Shown in pieces: positions 16,631 to 36,450 of a stretch of 64,000 nt of DNA (its first letter is position 1; the number at the start of each line of letters is the position of its first letter). Under the pieces are notes generated by a model, which made no database searches, was not told the DNA's origin, and saw only the letters and a program-made list of their open reading frames with translations. The translations under genes and the position numbers were made by a program. The stretch comes from Novosphingobium sp. GTDB lineage: Bacteria; Pseudomonadota; Alphaproteobacteria; Sphingomonadales; Sphingomonadaceae. The stretch lies in contig JAUYQH010000061.1 in NCBI GenBank assembly GCA_030697365.1, forward strand, positions 51,687 to 115,686, read 5' to 3'.

Positions 16631-17202
16631 GACGATACCGCCTTTCTGGGATCGACCTTCTCGACCATGCCGAACTGGACGAGCTTGAGGCTGAGGCCAT
16701 TGTAGACCCAGCCATATCGGAAGGTTTTCTGGTTGGCGGAGACTTCCTGGCGGCCAACCATCGTGTGAAGGACGCCAGTGACTTCGGAGGTCAGTCCGCC
16801 GGGATCGACTTTCATCGATTCAACCGTGAAGAACTGCGCGATGGATGAACCGCGCTGATCATCGACGATCTTCAACAGATCGGCCTTGACCTGGCCGTAG
16901 GCGCTCGGATGGACCATCTCGAGCACCGAGGTCATCCAGTATTCGAGGCTCTGAGGGGTACGGTTGAGCGTGAGAACCGCAGCGTCGCGCGTCACGGCTT
17001 CGAGGTATTCGCGGCTGACGCCCGCGCTCGAAATGGTGAGGGGCGTCCGCAGCACAGGCTGAAGCACAACTTCACGATCGCGCGAGGCGGCGGTGATGCC
17101 GAGAACCGCTGAAAGTCCGGCAAACGCGAGACTTGTCACAAGCAGCATGTTGCGCTGCTTGAGGACGCGCTGCGACTGCGTGTGCGAATATGCAAGATCC
17201 AT
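16627..17202 (-). CDS. traE: TraE, conjugal transfer pilus assembly protein
   Basis: MDLAYSHTQSQRVLKQRNMLLVTSLAFAGLS..., TraE-like; start trimmed to 17202. Confidence 0.88.
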   Translation of the reverse strand: MDLAYSHTQSQRVLKQRNMLLVTSLAFAGLSAVLGITAASRDREVVLQPVLRTPLTISSAGVSREYLEAVTRDAAVLTLNRTPQSLEYWMTSVLEMVHPSAYGQVKADLLKIVDDQRGSSIAQFFTVESMKVDPGGLTSEVTGVLHTMVGRQEVSANQKTFRYGWVYNGLSLKLVQFGMVEKVDPRKAVSS

Positions 17203-17207
17203 GCGCC

Positions 17208-17495
17208 CTACCCCGCCATCAAACGAAGAAACGAAGGTGGCGTGGCACGAAGCCCCACAAAACCCGCCGGCAAATGCCAGTAAGCCCAATGAAGCAACCA
17301 TGACGCGGCACGACCTGCTTTTGCTTTGCGCAAGCCCCACCAGCACCCAAAACCGAGAATGATCCCAATCAGGATATGCTGCGTCAAAACGCCCCAGATA
17401 AACGGCAAGACCATCGCGATGAACTCATCGAGCGTCCAAAGCCCGATGAGCTCGGGATCGTCGAGCCGTGCTGGAATTGCGTATTTGTCAGCCAT
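17208..17495 (-). CDS. traL: TraL, conjugal transfer protein
   Basis: 95 aa; YAIPARLDDPELIGLWTLDEF, TraL-like, two TM. Confidence 0.88.
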   Translation of the reverse strand: MADKYAIPARLDDPELIGLWTLDEFIAMVLPFIWGVLTQHILIGIILGFGCWWGLRKAKAGRAASWLLHWAYWHLPAGFVGLRATPPSFLRLMAG

Positions 17496-17527
17496 GTTGC
17501 CACGCCACCTTCGAGGAGGCGGCCGTC

Positions 17528-17547
17528 CCTAGCGGGCGGCCGCTAGG
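17528..17547 (-). other. Perfect intercistronic hairpin between traA and traL
   Basis: CCTAGCGG-GCGG-CCGCTAGG, 8-bp stem and 4-nt loop, starting 1 nt after the traA stop (17549-17551); no U-tract. Confidence 0.7.
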
Positions 17548-17548
17548 T

Positions 17549-17878
17549 TCAGATCGTGGCAGTGACCGCAGCGGTGACGATCGGCACGCCGGTCCCGGCG
17601 CCGACGCCGACCCCGACCGGGATCGCCACCTGCCCAAGGCTGAAACGCCCCGAGGCCAAACCGACGATGCCGCCGGCCAAGCTCAGCACGGTGATGATCT
17701 TGCCGCCCGAACCTTCAAGAAAGCCGGTGAACGACGACAGGGCCGTGTTGAAGGTCGCGTCGGCACCCGCCATCGCCGCCTCGGTTCCGACGACTGCTGC
17801 AGCAGCTGCAATCAGCCCGACCTTGGCGACGCTGGAGAGCGCAACGCGACCCGTTGGAAATGCGAAAATCCGCGTCAT
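17549..17878 (-). CDS. traA: TraA-like F-type prepilin
   Basis: 109 aa, leader then AGADATFNTALSSFTGFLEGSGGKIITVLSLAGGIVGLASG..., first gene of the tra operon, followed by traL. Confidence 0.82.
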   Translation of the reverse strand: MTRIFAFPTGRVALSSVAKVGLIAAAAAVVGTEAAMAGADATFNTALSSFTGFLEGSGGKIITVLSLAGGIVGLASGRFSLGQVAIPVGVGVGAGTGVPIVTAAVTATI

Positions 17879-18002
17879 TGGATCATCCTCAGTTAGCGAC
17901 GTCGAGATTAACGCCTTTGAGAGGATGGTCGTTTATCGTGCTCAGACACCAGACCGGAGACCCACGAAATCCTATTCGACTGTCCGATCCCACGCAAAAA
18001 CA

Positions 18003-18162
18003 CTGCCAAGCGCCAGATCCGCAGCCGATTCGGCAATGAGGGGTGCCGAAAGGCGCAACGCGGCGTGCCAAAGCGGCAACAACGCGGGCCTCATCGGCTA
18101 CGAAACGCGACACAACGGCAACTAGCGGTGCCAGAACGGCAACAACCGGTTGGAACTGGCAA
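18003..18162. repeat. Tandem dyad array, about 8 imperfect GNGCC-N5-GGCAAY units at about 21-bp spacing
   Basis: CGGCAA-like cores start at about 18011, 18031, 18053, 18074, 18095, 18116, 18137 and 18157 (spacing 20-22 bp); best units GTGCCAAAGCGGCAAC and GTGCCAGAACGGCAAC. Confidence 0.7.
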
Positions 18163-18231
18163 TCCGCCCGATTCGGGTCAACTTGGCGCCAGTCAGGAGT
18201 CGGCGAGAAACCGTGACCAGGAGGGTCAACG

Positions 18232-18603
18232 GTGAAACAAGCCTCGCAAACGTACCTGCTGTCCCTTACGAACCGGGAATTCGAACAAATTACGCTGGCG
18301 ATAATGGTGCACTCGAATAAAGCCCATAAATTACAGGGTTTTGGTCAGTGCGTCGCGCGATGGCTGCACCAATGGAGCACCGGCGAATTGCCGATGACCG
18401 AGCCAGGGCACGCTCAAGATATTGACGCCCTGGCGGGTTCTACCCACCAGATATATGTGGGCCTGGCTGGCGAAACCATCCAACTTTTCAAAGCGTGGCG
18501 GACCGCATTGGTTGAGGCATCAGCCATAGCGGTTCCCGTGAGGGCTGCGATAATGGCGCTCGTTGCCAGCTCTCTTGCTCAGCATCGACAAGAAAATGCT
18601 TGA
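18232..18603 (+). CDS. Hypothetical protein (123 aa), divergent from traA
   Basis: Plausible ORF following gagggtcaacggtgaaa; no family recognised. Confidence 0.5.
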   Translation: MKQASQTYLLSLTNREFEQITLAIMVHSNKAHKLQGFGQCVARWLHQWSTGELPMTEPGHAQDIDALAGSTHQIYVGLAGETIQLFKAWRTALVEASAIAVPVRAAIMALVASSLAQHRQENA

Positions 18604-18650
18604 TCTCTCTGCAAAGGTAAATTTACCACTTGAGGGATCAGGGGGGCTAA

Positions 18651-19148
18651 ATGATGGAATCCACGGGAATAATCGCAGAAGGCGTCGATCACGGCATTAA
18701 CGAGCGCTTTTTCAACGTTGGTCCCGAGCAGTTCATTCCCCTGGTTCTCGAGGTCATGCAGCAAAGGAGCGTTAGCGCAGCGGAACTCGCCCGGCGCCTG
18801 GCCATAAACCGAACCAATCTGAGCCGTTGGTTGACTCGCAAACGGCCTTTGCCGGCAGTGACGCTACAATCGATTTTCTTGACCCTTGAGATAGACGAAA
18901 TGCGCGCAATCCTTGCGATTGGTCGGTTTGGTCGGTGGCAACACTATTTCGATCCTGATGTCCGGATCATCTCCGATCTCATCGATGTTCTCCCAGACGC
19001 GCTCAGCAAAGCCCGGTCTGGGGCGACCCGCTATGCGGTCGGAGTTTCCGGGGCGATGGAGCTGGCACGCCGGGTCAGCGATATGATTGCGAACAACGAC
19101 CGGGAAACCGAACGTCGCCGATTGGAGCGACCCTTTACGGGAATGTGA
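18651..19148 (+). CDS. HTH (XRE-like) transcriptional regulator
   Basis: 165 aa with SAAELARRLAINRTNLSRWLTRKRPLPAVTLQSI helix-turn-helix. Confidence 0.75.
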   Translation: MMESTGIIAEGVDHGINERFFNVGPEQFIPLVLEVMQQRSVSAAELARRLAINRTNLSRWLTRKRPLPAVTLQSIFLTLEIDEMRAILAIGRFGRWQHYFDPDVRIISDLIDVLPDALSKARSGATRYAVGVSGAMELARRVSDMIANNDRETERRRLERPFTGM

Positions 19149-19195
19149 CGCTCCAAAAATGAGTAAGTGTGGTCTGGCGACCGCAGGTTATGCGG

Positions 19196-20345
19196 TTATG
19201 CGGCGAGTTTGGTCGCAGTGTCCCAGTCGACTTGGTCCGTCAGCGAGTGCCAGGTGAAGCCTACGGTCGGGATGCCGCTGTTGCGGACCCGGAGCACATT
19301 CGCCATTGCTTCCACAGCCATTGAACCGCCTCGTCGCCGCCCGGACTTTTCCGAAGGTTCGTCTCGGTGTGCATGATCGGCATTTTTTGCGGTCGTGGTA
19401 CTGCCACGTCAGCTCGTCGTACCCGAACACGTCGCCAGCGGGCCAGGTCCGCCCATCGGCCGCCACTGTGTGCTCGTTGGGACGTGATAGTCGTTCCCAT
19501 GATCGCGTAGCGGCGCAGGTTGCGCGTCAGGGAGAAACCGTGCTCCTCACGCGTCACGCCGTTGTCGAGCTGGTACTGGTGCATGCTCGAATCGACCCGC
19601 TTTGCCGTAGTTGAGGTCGAGGCTCAGGAAGCGGCGGGCGTTCATGGTCTCGGCCGGCTTGATCGCGTGCGGATTATCGGCGTGAATATATTCGGAGCGC
19701 TCCGACTGGATGAAAATCGCGTCGGGTCGAACGTCGATGGTTTCCCACTTGGCGAACACGTTCGCGCGGACGATGTGCTTCAAGGCGGTGACAAAGCCGA
19801 GGTCGCTTTTCATCTGCTCGTCTCACCAGCCGTAGAGGGCCGGAGAAGGTGACGCAGACGAACATCTGGTTGACGGGCGTGTAGAGTGGACCCACGGAAA
19901 ACGGTCGGCGAAAGCGCGCGCGTAGGCCGGAAAGAGGCGCGGGAAGTCCGGTTCTGGAAGTTCCCGATCCAGTCGGGCACCCCGAAATGGCAGAGGTCGA
20001 CGATCGGCACGATGTTGCGGCGCTTGAGGCCGGCGAAGGTGGCGTCGGCGAACCCCCAGTCGTAGCGCCCCTCCCCAGCCAGGCCGTGTGGAGCGGTGGA
20101 CCATAACGCAGGAAATGGATGCTCAACTCGTCGATGCGGTCGAAATCGTCGCTCCAGCGGTCGTGAAGCCCGCACTTCGCCATCTCGTCGGCGCGATGGC
20201 TGCCGTTCCTGATGGCGACGCCGGTCGGGAGCAGGACTGCGGCTGCCGTGAAGCTCCTCTCGGCGGAGAAGCACATGCGCGCCTCCACGATACGGACGCT
20301 GTGCAACGGCACGTTCGGGGGTCCAGGACCTGAACGAAGATCATT
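19196..20345 (-). pseudogene. Glycoside hydrolase family 1 (beta-glucosidase-like) remnant
   Basis: GH1-like segments spread over several minus frames: RWSDDFDRIDELSIHFLRYG, FAGLKRRNIVPIVDLCHFGVPDWIGNFQN, ARAFADRFPWVH, TPVNQMFVCVTFS, KMPIMHTETNLRKSPGGDEAVQWLWKQW, GIPTVGFTWHSLTDQVDWDTATKLAA*. Confidence 0.8.
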
Positions 20346-20703
20346 CTTCAAGGCCTTTGTAGTGCGCCGCCCGCTCGACGATCGCGAGCATGTTGCGCGC
20401 AGCCTCGACCGTTAGCCGGTGCGGCGTCGCTCCCGGCCGTGGCGAGATATATGCGGCCATCTCGCGGGCCAAGTCTGACTGGCTGCCGGGTGCTCCGGCA
20501 AGCAGGGCAACCACGAGATTCTCGAGCGCGATCAGCCGCACGCGCAGGTTGCCGGCCTCGGCATCGCCGATGTCGCCCACAACGGTCGGTGGCCGGTGCT
20601 GATCCAGGCCGGTGAAGGACCCGCCTTCATTTTCCCATCTACCAACAGCACGGTCGTGCACTCTAGCCCGTGCGTCGCCGGACTCGAACTCGTAAACTGC
20701 CAT
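20341..20703 (-). CDS. Hypothetical protein (120 aa)
   Basis: Intact ORF, no recognised family; overlaps the 5' end of the GH1 remnant. Confidence 0.35.
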   Translation of the reverse strand: MAVYEFESGDARARVHDRAVGRWENEGGSFTGLDQHRPPTVVGDIGDAEAGNLRVRLIALENLVVALLAGAPGSQSDLAREMAAYISPRPGATPHRLTVEAARNMLAIVERAAHYKGLEE

Positions 20704-24804: not shown

Positions 24805-28560
<3,756 letters not shown>

Positions 28561-29606: not shown

Positions 29607-30560
29607 CTAACTCCGTCGGACGACGCAACGGAAACCCACATGGCTCGTCGAGGTGTCCACCGGTTGGGCTAGCCGCGCAGCTGGACGATAGCGCTGACAA
29701 TAATTGGGGGCGCACAAATGCGATCCCCCCTTCAGGATCTTTCGGCCGATTTTGAAGTCCAGCATGGCGGCGTCATAGCTTCCCGCTTCAGAACCGCCGC
29801 GGGGGTTCACCGGGACACAGCAATTACGGCTGGGCGGCTTACGGTCGCCGTACCAGTCAGCAGTCCACTCCCAGACGTTCCCGATCATGTCGTGCAGCGC
29901 GAATCCGTTCGCGGGAAAGCTCCCCACCGCAGACGTGCTCTGCTGATCTAGAGGAGCGGTGTTTCGCCACGGGAACTCCCCTTGCCAATAATTGGCCAAC
30001 CGGCGCCCATCGGGTTCGAATGCGGAACCCCAGGCATAATCGGCCCCCTCTAGCCCGCCGCGCGCAGCGACCTCCCATTCGCTTTCACTCGGGAGTGCCT
30101 TGCCTGCCCAGCGTGCAAAGGCCTCCGCATCCTCCAAGCTGATATGGACGACGGGGTGTCGTTCAAGCCCTTCGATTGAGTCGGTCGGCCCTCTCGGATG
30201 GAGCCAGTCGGCCCCTGGAACCATGTGCCACCACGAGAAATCGGTGAGGGCGACCGGACCCCTAGGGGGCACAAATACCAGTGACGCAGCTTGCAGCATA
30301 TCCGGCAGGATTCCCGGATAGTCTGCAGCATTGGGCGGCTTTTCAGCCGTGGTGACGTAATTAGCCGACGTGATGAACTTGGCGAATTGCGCATTCGTAA
30401 CCGGCGTTTCGTCGATCCAGAAATCATCGAGCCTCACGCGGTGCGCGGGCCCCTCTTCGGGATAATGGCGATCCGACCCAAGCAAGAATTCGCCCCCCGG
30501 GATTAGGCGCATTCCATCGCATGAGTCTGGCCACCCCGCCCCGTCGAGTTCATCACCCAT
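29607..30560 (-). CDS. Formylglycine-generating enzyme (SUMF1 family)
   Basis: MRLIPGGEFLLGSDRHYPEEGPAHRV...FWIDETPVTNAQF...IGNVWEWTADWYG...KGGSHLCAPNYCQRYRPAAR with both active-site-type Cys. Confidence 0.92.
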   Translation of the reverse strand: MGDELDGAGWPDSCDGMRLIPGGEFLLGSDRHYPEEGPAHRVRLDDFWIDETPVTNAQFAKFITSANYVTTAEKPPNAADYPGILPDMLQAASLVFVPPRGPVALTDFSWWHMVPGADWLHPRGPTDSIEGLERHPVVHISLEDAEAFARWAGKALPSESEWEVAARGGLEGADYAWGSAFEPDGRRLANYWQGEFPWRNTAPLDQQSTSAVGSFPANGFALHDMIGNVWEWTADWYGDRKPPSRNCCVPVNPRGGSEAGSYDAAMLDFKIGRKILKGGSHLCAPNYCQRYRPAARLAQPVDTSTSHVGFRCVVRRS

Positions 30561-30574
30561 AATCAGCGCCTTGT

Positions 30575-32995
30575 TCACTTCAGCGTGACCGTCACCTGCT
30601 TTAAAGTTCCCGAAAACTTGCTCTGCTCCACTGTATAATCTTCGCTTACTGGAGTAATGGTGTCTTCGCCGACATCTAGGCCTTCCGAATGCGACACCCA
30701 TGCCGACAGTGTATGATCTATTCGACCGGTCGCCACGATCTGACCGTCGATGCTAAGCGTAAGCGTTCCTCCGGCGCCAACTGCCTCGCCGTCGACCGCA
30801 AATTCCGCGACTACCTTGTGAGCGCCAGGAGACAAAGGTTGCGGTGACCTGATCACATATTGCCGCTGGCCGATGGCATTATAGTGGAATACCGGCCGCC
30901 CGTCCTTGATGTAAAGCGCATGCCCTCCGAACCGTCCCCCTTGAGCGATGAGGACGCCGTCCGAACCCGGGTCAGTCACCACGTCCGCCTCGATCGAAAA
31001 GGATCGTCCGATGAATCTAGGTGCCGCCCCTTCCGGAAGCCTGGTCAGTCCGGGCCGGAACTTAAAAACGGTACGGCTACCCGTCAGGGTCGGACGTCCT
31101 GTCGCGCCTTCGTTGATGTCGTGGATGGGAAGGATATTGTTCCTCGCGGCCTCCGCCCAGAAGAGCTGCTGCATTTGCTTTAGCTTAGCGGGATTGCTCT
31201 TAGAAAGATCACGAGACTGGGAGAAGTCGTTCCTGATGTTATAAAGCTCCCAAACTCGGTCATCGAGGTTAATCTTACGTCCGCGTGTCAATTCCCAGGG
31301 AGTCTTGGCCGGCCGCGTTCCGGCCCACCAACCGTCGTCGTAGATCGCTAGGTTCTGAAGCATCGAAAACACCTGAGTGCGTCGGTGGGACGGCTCGCCG
31401 GCATTGTCGAAGCTATATCCGAAGCTGATCCCGTCCAACGGCTTCTGGGGAATGCCATTCAAGATTGACGGTTCCCGCACGCCGGCCGCCTCGAGTATCG
31501 TCGGCACGACATCTGTCACATAGTGAAACTGGCTTCGTATCTCGCCGCGACCTTTGATCCGTGCCGGCCATGAGACTACCATGCCGTTCCGAACTCCACC
31601 GAAATGGGAGGTCTGCTTGTAATATTGGAAGGGGGTGCTCCCTGCCCAAGCGAAGGGGGCGGCATAATGGTTGTATAGAGTGGGTCCGCCGATTTCGCTT
31701 CCCCGGCTCTTCATATATTCGAAGCTGTCATCGAACCTGTTGATGAAAGACTGCTCGTACAACAGCCCCTCCGGGCCACCCTCAGCGCTGCTGCCATTGT
31801 CGCCGTTTATGTAGATGAAGAGTGTGTTGTCGAACGTGCCGTCGGCGCGAAGGCGATCCAAAACTCGCCCCAGCTGGGAATCGAGGAACGCGATCTGTGC
31901 AGCGAACGCCTCGAAATGAAGCGCGTAAACCCGCCTGCGTTCGGGAGTGAGTGACGCCCAAGCGGGGAGGAACGCGGGTCGAGGGGTCAATACTACGTCC
32001 CTAGGAATTATTCCAAGCGTCTTCTGCCGCGCGAATGTCTCCTCGCGCATCTTGTCCCATCCCCCGTCGAATTTCCCGCGGAACTTCGTGAGCCATTCGG
32101 CGGGTGCGTGGTGCGGCGCATGCGCGGTCCCTGGCGTGAAGTACACGAAGAAGGGTCTGTCCGGAGCTATCTGCTTTTGCTCCCCTATCCAGTTGATCGC
32201 ACGGTCCGCGAGATCCCTGTCCAAGATATAGTTCGGATCGGACGGGCGCGTGATGTTCGTGGTATTCTCCACAAGTGCCGGCGCCCACTGGCTGGCATCA
32301 GCGCCAAGGAAGCCGTAGTAGTGCTGGAAGCCCATTCCGGTGGGCCAGTGATCAAATGGGCCGACCTGACTTTCTTCCCATTCGGGTATCAGATGCCATT
32401 TACCGAAAGCGGCAGTGGAATAACCGTTCTGCTTAAGAATTTCCGCGACGCTACCGGCCGATTTGGGGATCACGGTCGTGTAGCCATCATAGCCAGTCGC
32501 GAGATTGTTCGCATTGGCGACGTTGACGTTTGTCTGAAAGCGGCCTGTCAGCAGGGCCGCGCGCGTCGCCGAACACAGTGCGGCAGTGTTGAATTGGTTG
32601 TAGCGCAGTCCGCCCGCAGCCAACGCATCAAGATTCGGTGTAGGCACGGGGCCACCAAACGTGCTGGTGACCCCGAATCCGATGTCGTCCATCATGAGTA
32701 CAAAGACGTTGGGAGCGCCTTCCGGGGCGGATTTGATAGTTGCGCCGGGCCAGGTGGGGGGCGCTGATTCCGCGGCAGTTCGTCCCACGAAATCGACAGG
32801 TTCTCGTGGGATTTCGGGCAGCATCTGCTGGGCCCATCCGGAGACCGGCGCACTTGCAAGTCCTGCGACGAAGAGAAGGCTCGCCAGACGCGAGGCTTGG
32901 GCATGCAAACCGGCCGACAGTTTCACAAGCCCGCGCGCCTCACTTCTACTTTGAAGCCTCGCAGGTCTGATCCATCGGATTTGGGGCTCGCTCAT
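30575..32995 (-). CDS. Arylsulfatase (type I, formylglycine-dependent)
   Basis: 806 aa; NVFVLMMDDIGFG metal site; NTAALCSATRAALLTGR matches C-X-[PA]-X-R; signal-like N-terminus. Confidence 0.92.
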   Translation of the reverse strand: MSEPQIRWIRPARLQSRSEARGLVKLSAGLHAQASRLASLLFVAGLASAPVSGWAQQMLPEIPREPVDFVGRTAAESAPPTWPGATIKSAPEGAPNVFVLMMDDIGFGVTSTFGGPVPTPNLDALAAGGLRYNQFNTAALCSATRAALLTGRFQTNVNVANANNLATGYDGYTTVIPKSAGSVAEILKQNGYSTAAFGKWHLIPEWEESQVGPFDHWPTGMGFQHYYGFLGADASQWAPALVENTTNITRPSDPNYILDRDLADRAINWIGEQKQIAPDRPFFVYFTPGTAHAPHHAPAEWLTKFRGKFDGGWDKMREETFARQKTLGIIPRDVVLTPRPAFLPAWASLTPERRRVYALHFEAFAAQIAFLDSQLGRVLDRLRADGTFDNTLFIYINGDNGSSAEGGPEGLLYEQSFINRFDDSFEYMKSRGSEIGGPTLYNHYAAPFAWAGSTPFQYYKQTSHFGGVRNGMVVSWPARIKGRGEIRSQFHYVTDVVPTILEAAGVREPSILNGIPQKPLDGISFGYSFDNAGEPSHRRTQVFSMLQNLAIYDDGWWAGTRPAKTPWELTRGRKINLDDRVWELYNIRNDFSQSRDLSKSNPAKLKQMQQLFWAEAARNNILPIHDINEGATGRPTLTGSRTVFKFRPGLTRLPEGAAPRFIGRSFSIEADVVTDPGSDGVLIAQGGRFGGHALYIKDGRPVFHYNAIGQRQYVIRSPQPLSPGAHKVVAEFAVDGEAVGAGGTLTLSIDGQIVATGRIDHTLSAWVSHSEGLDVGEDTITPVSEDYTVEQSKFSGTLKQVTVTLK

Positions 32996-33066
32996 CAGAA
33001 TTTGTCTCCACCTAAAACGCAGATTGCACTGCCTGCGGGACGGCTACCTACCCCAGCCGCGCTCAA

Positions 33067-35562
33067 TCAATATCGCCAGGTAAGTTGGGCCTGCACCGTA
33101 CGCGGCAGGGCCGCATAACCCACTTGATCGGCGGGGACCCCTGCTGCCGTCGCCGTGCCAGAGCCGGTGAACGGAGCCTCGAACAAGCCTGTCACGTAGA
33201 ATTTGTTGGTGAGGTTTTTGCCGATCAATGCAAGCTCCCATCGTTCATCCACCGTTTGCAACCTTACTGACGCGTCGAAGGTGACATAACTTTCCTGCCG
33301 GGACAGCTGATTTCCGAACGGCGATGCGAGATAATCGTCGCTATAGCGCGCCTGACCCGAGATGCCGAACTTCAAGTTGGACGCGATTTCCGCATCATAA
33401 GCTATTCCGAGCGAGCCCACCAACTTGGGAGCGACCGAGGTTTCCACCCCGCTCAGGTCCTGCACGGTGCGGGTACCGACCCTTCGGCAGCCCTGAGCGA
33501 TGGTTTGGCCAGTATAGCAGGGGGCCGTGGGAAAGCTGATATATCGGGCGGAGTTGTAGTTCAGAGTGCCTTGGGCAGAAAATCCCCTCAGTCCCGACGG
33601 CGTATAATTGAATTCGGCTTCGATGCCTTTCACTCGTGCAGAGGCCGCATTAAAAGTGGTGAACGCAAAGGTTCCGGCATTGAAGAAGTCGACCTGTAGA
33701 TCGGAATATTTATAAGTGTATGCTCCAAAATTCAACAGCAGCTGGCGGCCGAAGAGGCGCGTCTTCACGCCGCCTTCGAAGCCCTCGACAGTCTCTGGGC
33801 CGAAGGCAAAGTCCGCTACGGTCACGAAGCGGCTAAGGATCGCCGAGTTCGAGAAACCACCGGACTTATATCCAGTCTTATAGGCTCCGTAGATTGTGAT
33901 GTTCGACGTAGGTTTATACGTCACGGTCGCCTCGGGCGAGAAATCGTCAAATTTCTGATTGGACGTTATCGTCAAGTTGGGAATGAAGATGCCGGGCGCC
34001 GCGCGAGCCGGATGAACGTACGGGTGCAGGAAATAACTGTCCTTAGTCTCGTCGGTATAGCGCCCGCCCACCGCAACTTCGATTTGAGAGCTAGGCGTCC
34101 AGATCAGCTGACCGAAAACCGCGAACGTTTCTCCGTCAGTCTGGGAGTCCTTGCTGTTGACGAGATAGCGCTGCGACGGCAGCGGCGCCGCACTATTCTC
34201 TAGGCCACCCGCCGCGTTGGTGGAGTTATAAACGCGCTCGGTGTCCTGGTAATAGGCACCGATCATCCCATTGATCTGGCCATCGAACGATGTCAGCGCA
34301 CGTAATTCACTCGAAATGGCATCGAAGCTCGAGCGTTCAGTGGCGATCGAAGCTGTGGACGCGATCGACGAAGTGAAGTCGCCGTCGAGCTGCCACGAAT
34401 TTTTATTGTGGTTGTAGTTCGTGACCGAGGTCAAGGTAACTTGACCAAGATCATAGTTTATTGTGCCCGTGGCGTTCCAAGAACGATATTGGTTGCCAAG
34501 ACTTCCGTCTTTGTTTGCGAAATCCTGGACCGACGCCAAGCTCACCGGATGTCTGTTGTGATATACCTTAAAGCGCTCACCACATCTGACCGTGGGATTC
34601 TGCTGGCTCGCTCCTGTGGGGCAGGCAAACAGTACGGTATTCCAGCCCGGATCATTCACATCGGCTTCGGATGCACTCGCCTTCAACGTCACGTCTAGGT
34701 CTTCAGTCGGGCTCCATTTCACGGTCGCCCGGCCCAGCAGCTCGTGCCCTCGCGGAACTTCGCGCTCGCCGGCAGGCATCGGATGTACGGTGGCGGCATT
34801 CCCCATTGCGACATCACGCGTTGTGTAAACTTGTGGACCGGCGAGGTTCTCGACATAACCACCGTACATTTTGGACCCACGAACCGCGATCCGCACGCCC
34901 AGCGTGTCAGTCAATGGGGTAGAAGCGACGAACTCGCCGATCACATTCTCTGCATTGAATTCATAAGCCGTCCGAGCTCGCAATTCGAGTTTATTACCCG
35001 GATCGGCGGTGGTGATGGAGATGACGCCCGCTGTCGCGTTCTTGCCAAAGAACAAAGCCTGGGGTCCCTTGAGGACTTCAATCCTGCCAAGGTCAAACAG
35101 ACCCTCGTTGATGATCCTGCCCTGCCCGTAATAGACGCTGTCGACGACTACCGCGACCGACTGCTCGATTCCGATCGAGCTCGAGTTCGAGCCCAGGCCG
35201 CGGATTGTCAGCTGCGCCCCCGAACCGGTCGCGGCTCGACCAATAGTAAACTGCGGCGTGATCGCAGCGACCTTTTCGAGGCTACTAAGATCCTGCTTCT
35301 GAATTGTCTCAGCACCATAGGCGGTAATCGAAACGGGAATGTCTTGTGTCGTCTCGAGACGCTTGCGGGCAGTGACGATGATATCCCCCGACCCATCCGC
35401 CTCCGACTCGGCCATTGAAGCGGTCGCAAGATTCGGTTTGGGATCGTCGGCTGTTTGCGCAAGAGCCGAGCTTGCGCTTAGCAGGCCGGCTGTGGTTGCG
35501 AGCAATGCCCGCATGACGACTTTAATAGATCCGTGCGGTCTTTGGCGCATGTCAGTGCCCAT
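33067..35562 (-). CDS. TonB-dependent receptor
   Basis: 831 aa; TonB-box-like DIIVTARKRLETTQDIPVSITAYGAE, plug QLTIRGLGSNSSSIGIEQSV, LGRIEVLKGPQALFFGKNATAGVI, terminal aromatic (WRY). Confidence 0.93.
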   Translation of the reverse strand: MGTDMRQRPHGSIKVVMRALLATTAGLLSASSALAQTADDPKPNLATASMAESEADGSGDIIVTARKRLETTQDIPVSITAYGAETIQKQDLSSLEKVAAITPQFTIGRAATGSGAQLTIRGLGSNSSSIGIEQSVAVVVDSVYYGQGRIINEGLFDLGRIEVLKGPQALFFGKNATAGVISITTADPGNKLELRARTAYEFNAENVIGEFVASTPLTDTLGVRIAVRGSKMYGGYVENLAGPQVYTTRDVAMGNAATVHPMPAGEREVPRGHELLGRATVKWSPTEDLDVTLKASASEADVNDPGWNTVLFACPTGASQQNPTVRCGERFKVYHNRHPVSLASVQDFANKDGSLGNQYRSWNATGTINYDLGQVTLTSVTNYNHNKNSWQLDGDFTSSIASTASIATERSSFDAISSELRALTSFDGQINGMIGAYYQDTERVYNSTNAAGGLENSAAPLPSQRYLVNSKDSQTDGETFAVFGQLIWTPSSQIEVAVGGRYTDETKDSYFLHPYVHPARAAPGIFIPNLTITSNQKFDDFSPEATVTYKPTSNITIYGAYKTGYKSGGFSNSAILSRFVTVADFAFGPETVEGFEGGVKTRLFGRQLLLNFGAYTYKYSDLQVDFFNAGTFAFTTFNAASARVKGIEAEFNYTPSGLRGFSAQGTLNYNSARYISFPTAPCYTGQTIAQGCRRVGTRTVQDLSGVETSVAPKLVGSLGIAYDAEIASNLKFGISGQARYSDDYLASPFGNQLSRQESYVTFDASVRLQTVDERWELALIGKNLTNKFYVTGLFEAPFTGSGTATAAGVPADQVGYAALPRTVQAQLTWRY

Positions 35563-35605
35563 TTTGAAATCCTCCCACTCCGAACTGCCAGCATCTCAGC
35601 CAGCT

Positions 35606-35619
35606 AACAAATATTTGTT
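35606..35619. promoter_or_regulatory. Operator site A (AACAAATATTTGTT), upstream of TonB receptor
   Basis: Perfect 14-bp palindrome followed by TTA; 5-site family in this window. Confidence 0.6.
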
Positions 35620-35700
35620 TTACCAATGATTATTCTACGTCGCGCTTTTTCGGCGCCCGACATGTCGGGTCTGTCGCAGTCCGATGTCATCGACACCGGC

Positions 35701-36450
35701 TCAAAGCGCGGTCATGCCGCCATCGATGATATGCTCTGCCCCGGAAATGAACGAGGATTCGTCGGAGGCGAGAAAGATCGCCAGCTGTGACACTTCCGAC
35801 GGATCGGCGAGACGGCGAAGCGGGATCATGTCCAATGCGCCTCCACCCTCTTCATCGGTGGCAGCGGCCATCATCGGCGTTCGAATGTAGCCCGGGTGGA
35901 TTGAGTTAACCCGGATGTTCTGAGCGCCGTATTCGACTGCTACCTGTTTGGTCATACCTCGTACGGCGAACTTGCTTGCTACATATGCGAGACTGGGTGC
36001 GCCGTAGATCGCAACAATTCCCGCGACGGACGAGATGTTGACGATCGACCCTCCACCCTCGCGAATCATCGACGGAAGTACGGCTTGCATACCGAGAAAG
36101 ACAGCCAGCTGATTGACCGCGCAGACCTGAAGGAAATCTTCGGCGGGGAGGTCGATCGTGGACGAGATAGGGCCGAGAATGCCGGCGTTATTTATCAAGA
36201 CATTGATTGCACCAAACTTTGCTTCGCCCTTTTTGACGACCGATTTCCATGCATCGGCATCAGCCACATCGTGCCTAACGAACAAGGCAGATTCTCCGAG
36301 CTCGTCCGCGAGCTTCTCGCCGGCTTCCTGGTTGATATCGGTCAGAATGACCTTGGCACCTTGCGCGACGAATTCTCGCGCATGTGCCGAACCCATACCC
36401 TGCGAAGCGCCCGTTATGATGGCGACTTTGCCGTTCAATCTGCCAGTCAT
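35701..36450 (-). CDS. SDR family oxidoreductase
   Basis: MTGRLNGKVAIITGASQGMGSAHA, NNAG, YVASK; start trimmed to 36450. Confidence 0.92.
   Translation of the reverse strand: MTGRLNGKVAIITGASQGMGSAHAREFVAQGAKVILTDINQEAGEKLADELGESALFVRHDVADADAWKSVVKKGEAKFGAINVLINNAGILGPISSTIDLPAEDFLQVCAVNQLAVFLGMQAVLPSMIREGGGSIVNISSVAGIVAIYGAPSLAYVASKFAVRGMTKQVAVEYGAQNIRVNSIHPGYIRTPMMAAATDEEGGGALDMIPLRRLADPSEVSQLAIFLASDESSFISGAEHIIDGGMTAL

Follow-up and report, generated by a model that had tools for sequence, protein, structure and literature searches.

What is the function of a ladder of short dyads that lies between traA and a pair of divergent genes in a Novosphingobium transfer region? The initial annotation had offered three candidates, namely a cooperative operator for the HTH gene at 18651, a TraM/oriT-like site, or an iteron origin. 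The 64,000-nucleotide stretch of DNA that was analysed (the window) is part of a 116-kb contig of a draft genome and carries an F-type transfer region resembling that of pNL1. Its traA gene (17549-17878, minus strand) is the first of the F-type tra operon, followed by traL, traE and traK; it encodes a TrbC/VirB2-like pilin with a weak match to PF04956 and is kept in related plasmids. Upstream of traA, and divergent from it, are two genes on the plus strand. The first, gene1 (18232-18603), specifies a protein of 123 amino acids for which a structure model and its PDB matches indicate a tandem ribbon-helix-helix (RHH) with a fold like that of F TraY; the second, gene2 (18651-19148), specifies 165 amino acids, with a Cro/CI-type HTH (PF13443, above cut-off) and a helical C-terminal domain. 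The site of the array is the 353-bp gap between traA and gene1. Elsewhere in the window, positions 19188-20351 contain overlapping minus-strand ORF fragments in differing frames, possibly one broken gene (one such fragment had no match in Pfam), and a Tn3-family transposase (PF01526) is encoded at 25094-27883.

The array, its period and its conservation

Autocorrelation of positions 18003-18162 yielded a lag-21 self-match of 0.511 (z = 5.84), where shuffles that preserve dinucleotides gave 0.280 ± 0.039; across 2000 such shuffles, z did not exceed 4.43 at any lag. Lags 42 and 63 gave z values of 3.96 and 3.33, respectively, and the summed z at lags 21, 42 and 63 was reached by none of the 2000 shuffles. 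The 21-bp period claimed for this stretch is thus confirmed, and composition-matched shuffles do not reproduce it. When the whole 64 kb was scanned for lags 21 and 42 combined, the top 160-bp stretch began at 18021. The second-best stretch, 1181-1420, overlaps predicted ORFs and may reflect coding periodicity.

A repeat search recovered a 29-nt unit in four copies at steps of 21, 21 and 21 bp, and a chain finder an eight-unit chain with spacings of 20, 22, 21, 21, 21, 21 and 20. Together with pattern counts, these analyses place about eight dyad units at 20-22 bp within 18003-18163, approximately five of them clear and three weak. About eight copies of a GNGCC-N5-GGCAAY dyad had been proposed: the eight-unit chain at 20-22 bp stands, but the full consensus is exact in two units only, GTGCCAAAGCGGCAAC (18065-18080) and GTGCCAGAACGGCAAC (18128-18143), which are also the only exact matches on the plus strand of the window (shuffle mean 0.01). 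These two had been singled out as the best units flanked by degenerate ones, and rightly so; two more units are two mismatches off the consensus and the outer units are weak. The shorter pattern GCC-N4/5-GGC occurs five times where 0.38 are expected, a count reached in none of 5000 shuffles. The bulk of the signal in this array comes from the right half (GGCAAY), and symmetry of the full palindrome gave p = 0.64 in a column-shuffle test, which counts against reading the array as an operator of gene2.

The array contains the best-scoring motif matches in the window. A search of the same genome with GTGCC-N4-CGGCAAC located two exact copies within the array and two isolated copies outside it; allowing mismatches gave no more matches than a reversed control, and therefore no regulon is visible. 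A promoter and terminator consensus scan of 17860-18660 found none, which likewise counts against the operator reading, and an Rfam scan of 17000-19500 gave no match.

Related loci were collected with a DNA query spanning traA, which matched 85 plasmids, and with a TraA profile search of genome contigs, which gave 80 loci. The 80 contig loci, 12 plasmid loci and the window contributed 81 distinct traA-upstream regions from the Sphingomonadales, of which 52 remained as non-redundant once near copies had been removed. Across these 52 the only strong lags are 21-22 and their multiples (Stouffer Z of 14.4 at 21 and 12.3 at 22); the phase seen in the window is thus kept at 21-22 bp in homologous loci. 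A z above 2 at lag 21 or 22 was obtained for 73% of loci, compared to 6% and 2% in two coding controls, and the coding control stretches of the same loci display codon-type lags alone. According to the chain finder, 57 of the 81 regions possess at least five clear, mostly palindromic units with a mean spacing of 21.4; its spacing was preset to 20-23, so the autocorrelation is the independent evidence for the period. Palindrome symmetry is significant (p < 0.05) in 47 of these 57 clear arrays, and their stacks reveal half-sites that alternate in orientation at distances of about 10 and 11 bp, that is, one helical turn. Measured from the start of traA, the array runs from a median of 121 nt to 255 nt and so stops ahead of the divergent genes. 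About a quarter of related loci have a weak array or none, with the HTH gene mostly still there, an observation that also counts against an operator of gene2.

The letters of the units are wholly different between plasmid groups, whereas their spacing, their place and the adjacent HTH gene are kept. The group dyads include TTTCCC-N5-GGGAAA, GACCACGTGGTC, TGGGCGC..GCGCCCA, CGCAACACGTGTTGCG, GTGTCGAAACGACACC and TTGCC..GGCAAC. Likeness between units is approximately 56% within an array and 38% (in the best register) between arrays with distant gene2 proteins, and the sites therefore turn over together. These features bear on the third candidate, an iteron origin of replication. Many iterons measure about 20-22 bp and are in phase with the helix, much as the ladder is; however, its units are inverted dyads rather than direct repeats, the letters of these units vary freely, and annotation shows no rep gene next to any of the 12 plasmid loci or within the 50 kb of pNL1 that were inspected. 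We consider an iteron origin barely credible.

The divergent genes as possible binders

The structure model of gene2 (pLDDT 89.1) and its HTH domain (residues 34-78, positions 18750-18884, plus strand; located by Pfam and alignment, with a recognition helix around NRTNLSRWL) match HipB, C.Esp1396I and SinR. HipB and the C.Esp1396I controller proteins, the nearest solved HTH folds, are small HTH dimers that act on palindromic operators; gene2 differs from them in its extra C-terminal helical domain and in having up to eight sites. Profiles built from the neighbouring ORFs were needed to find relatives of either gene, tblastn in the plasmids having returned no match for gene1 and one for gene2. 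With these profiles, gene2 relatives were detected in 75 of the 81 related loci and beside 54 of the 57 clear arrays, and the three exceptions are accounted for: L004 carries an IS1380 insertion, L070 runs into a contig end, and L058 has a diverged HTH that was missed. The first of these, plasmid pF2 of Sphingobium yanoikuyae, is a natural regulator mutant: IS1380 interrupts the gene2 region and the array stays.

Nine clear arrays have no gene1 by profile (one of them at a contig end). In six loci (L002, L011, L024, L026, L049 and L060) the array and gene2 are present with the start of gene2 too near the array to accommodate gene1, and because these loci keep the array and the HTH gene, gene2 is the likely binder. 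The proposal of a cooperative operator for the HTH gene at 18651 gains support here, given that the array is accompanied by the HTH gene whether or not the small gene separates the two. Binding by gene1 instead would be in keeping with the ability of RHH proteins to recognise dyads whose half-sites are separated by about a turn, and gene1 identity tracks dyad similarity strongly (r = 0.79), better overall than does helix 3 of gene2; likeness between dyads goes with every measure of shared descent, that of gene1 among them. Yet the six arrays that leave no room for gene1, three more without it by profile, and the presence of gene2 wherever this could be judged render gene1 a quite improbable binder.

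Returning to gene2 as the likely binder, its recognition-helix groups go with the dyad groups in the alignment. A partial Mantel test of helix 3, given the C-terminal domain, returned a modest r of 0.13, reached in 7 of 2000 permutations. The cleanest case is provided by L008 (Blastomonas) and L009 (Sphingopyxis macrogoltabida), whose annotated TraL proteins share an identical accession and whose gene2 C-terminal domains are 92% identical, while helix 3 is only 36% identical (KRGFFERLEAG versus KEKFFDKVEDG) and the dyad types differ (GACCACCCCGGTC versus CCCCANNNYGGG). A rule that plasmids within one genome invariably have different dyads was judged by eye only and was dropped, as the same-genome pairs L016/L021 and L029/L069 look alike.

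As regards gene1, the model (pLDDT 89.7) has strand-helix-helix twice in one chain, and its best PDB matches are to chains in the F relaxosome entries 9f0z and 9f0y, in which TraY is present (TM about 0.45-0.48, E about 0.07). TraY is the tandem RHH protein of the F relaxosome complex (PMC12117103). Searches of Pfam and the PDB with the gene1 sequence gave no meaningful match, the Pfam TraY family included, and the hhalign probability against TraY was 0.3%; since the match scores are moderate and sequence similarity is absent, the likeness is one of fold. Thus, gene1 resembles F TraY in carrying two RHH motifs per chain and in its place beside traA (PMC12117103), and differs from it in being divergent from traA, in its lack of a sequence relationship and in its moderate fold scores. 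Judging by the model, gene1 and its relatives, which have no Pfam family, are likely an unrecognised TraY counterpart in sphingomonad F-type plasmids. It is probably a partner, in the relaxosome or as a co-regulator, rather than the binder of the array.

The relaxase module and the oriT question

A TraY-like protein beside traA recalls F, which has a kit of transglycosylase, oriT, traM, traJ, traY and traA at this end of its tra region. The array might accordingly be an accessory site of the relaxosome or of oriT (TraM-, TraY- or SmpO-like), bound by gene1 or gene2 and marking the plasmid for its own transfer machinery; divergence of its letters would then reflect a transfer specificity particular to each plasmid. 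Precedents exist for oriT accessory sites that diverge along with matched proteins: in the SmpO/oriT subtypes of pWBG749, as in the array and its regulator, a plasmid-specific DNA-binding protein and its sites diverge together (PMC8136818). SmpO, however, is an RHH protein of the relaxosome whose two sites lie in oriT (PMC8136818), whereas the array is a ladder at a promoter region.

The location of the relaxase genes speaks to this reading. On the contig of the window (C33), genes for an RHH protein, TraD/TrwB and a TrwC relaxase lie at about 29,900-36,000 and the array at about 69,689-69,849; this module and its upstream intergenic region are 34-40 kb from the array, and some 25-30 kb in related plasmids, which argues against the array being an oriT. 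A small gene, TraD and MobF follow in the same order in pNL1, pCAR3, pLA1 and pCADAB1, the small gene having an RHH annotation or score in pNL1 and pLA1. The array motif was not found in the MOB-module intergenic region of pNL1 or pLA1. Moreover, the array letters turn over while the relaxases remain approximately 77-100% alike over their first 333 residues. The TraM/oriT-like site of the initial annotation is disfavoured on these grounds, and an accessory role in a relaxosome appears unlikely. No nic site was identified anywhere.

Upstream of the small gene, TraD and MobF is a 420-480-bp intergenic region that contains invariant blocks, TGCAGACCGTACAC among them (positions 1936-2389 of the pNL1 locus, L120, corresponding to 90116-90569 of pNL1, with equivalents in L117-L119). 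R388 has the matching gene order TrwA-TrwB-TrwC, with oriT upstream. On sequence grounds, this conserved intergenic region is a good oriT candidate.

A partition or positioning site comparable to the stbDRs of R388 was also considered, with gene2 in the role of StbA and an effect on stability that would reach transfer only indirectly. In both cases a conjugative plasmid carries repeats ahead of a small DNA-binding gene in the neighbourhood of conjugation genes, and StbA affects stability as well as transfer (PMC3098194). The stbDRs consist of 9-bp direct repeats separated by 2 nt and lie beside oriT (PMC3098194), an arrangement that the array does not share. Its units are instead 16-17-bp dyads at 21-22 bp, situated by the pilin gene and away from the relaxase module, and we regard a partition site as very improbable.

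A putative transfer switch

We therefore read the array as a putative multi-site cooperative operator of gene2 at divergent tra and gene1-gene2 promoters, and put the probability of this reading at roughly 70%. Each dyad would receive one gene2 dimer whose two recognition helices are separated by about one turn of the DNA, and neighbouring dimers would follow every two turns, such that seven or eight of them would line one face of about 150-160 bp. An arrangement in which all helices face one side would favour cooperative binding. The occupied array would lie between a predicted leftward tra promoter, from traA onwards, and a predicted rightward gene1-gene2 promoter, and so would set both. Most likely, the transfer genes would be kept off or tightly tuned, presumably by repression rather than activation, and gene2 would regulate itself with a steep, switch-like response.

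As in Xre/Cro-CI switches, a Cro/CI-type HTH regulator is encoded beside its putative sites, and several dyad sites are found between divergent conjugation and regulator operons. The closest parallel is Rco(LS20) of the Bacillus plasmid pLS20, an HTH regulator of the Xre type that has numerous sites by divergent promoters and controls conjugation genes as well as itself (PMC4207663). By analogy with Rco, the default would be transfer repression together with autoregulation. The pLS20 system is Gram-positive and has its motifs divided between two operators (a1-a7 and b1-b4) that are separated by 75 bp, with looping (PMC4207663), in contrast to the single continuous ladder at 21-22 bp of the sphingomonads. 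Multi-site Xre-type operators between divergent promoters of conjugative elements are already known, and the novelty lies in the regularity of the ladder, in its wide conservation across the Sphingomonadales, and in the fast turnover of sites together with the regulator. In the literature searched, from which most subscription papers were absent, we found no published report of this array and no paper on the transfer control of pNL1-type plasmids.

A GANTC site (GATTC), located by motif search, occupies 18027-18031 in the left end of the array, with further ones at 18170 and 18197, just to its right. In the window and 42 related intergenic regions upstream of traA, GANTC occurs 100 times against 63 expected from shuffles, and it is rarer in neighbouring coding sequence (82 against 188 expected). 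Density is highest on the right flank of the array, and sites often flank the arrays. GANTC is the target of CcrM in alphaproteobacteria, and our guess is that these sites are tied to methylation of this region.

A bolder, tentative extension, which we hold to be possible rather than probable, is that array and regulator form a self-diversifying specificity module. All five to eight sites would change in concert, their number and spacing being held and the recognition helix following, such that each plasmid lineage would acquire a private transfer switch reminiscent of phage immunity groups, possibly with CcrM methylation at GANTC as an input.

Sphingomonad plasmids of the pNL1 type spread pollutant-degradation genes, and the present findings name a likely transfer switch and its regulator for dozens of such plasmids at once. 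Furthermore, the loci supply a natural series of some forty different HTH proteins, each paired with an adjacent multi-site array, a series that is useful for the question of how a regulator and its many sites change specificity jointly.
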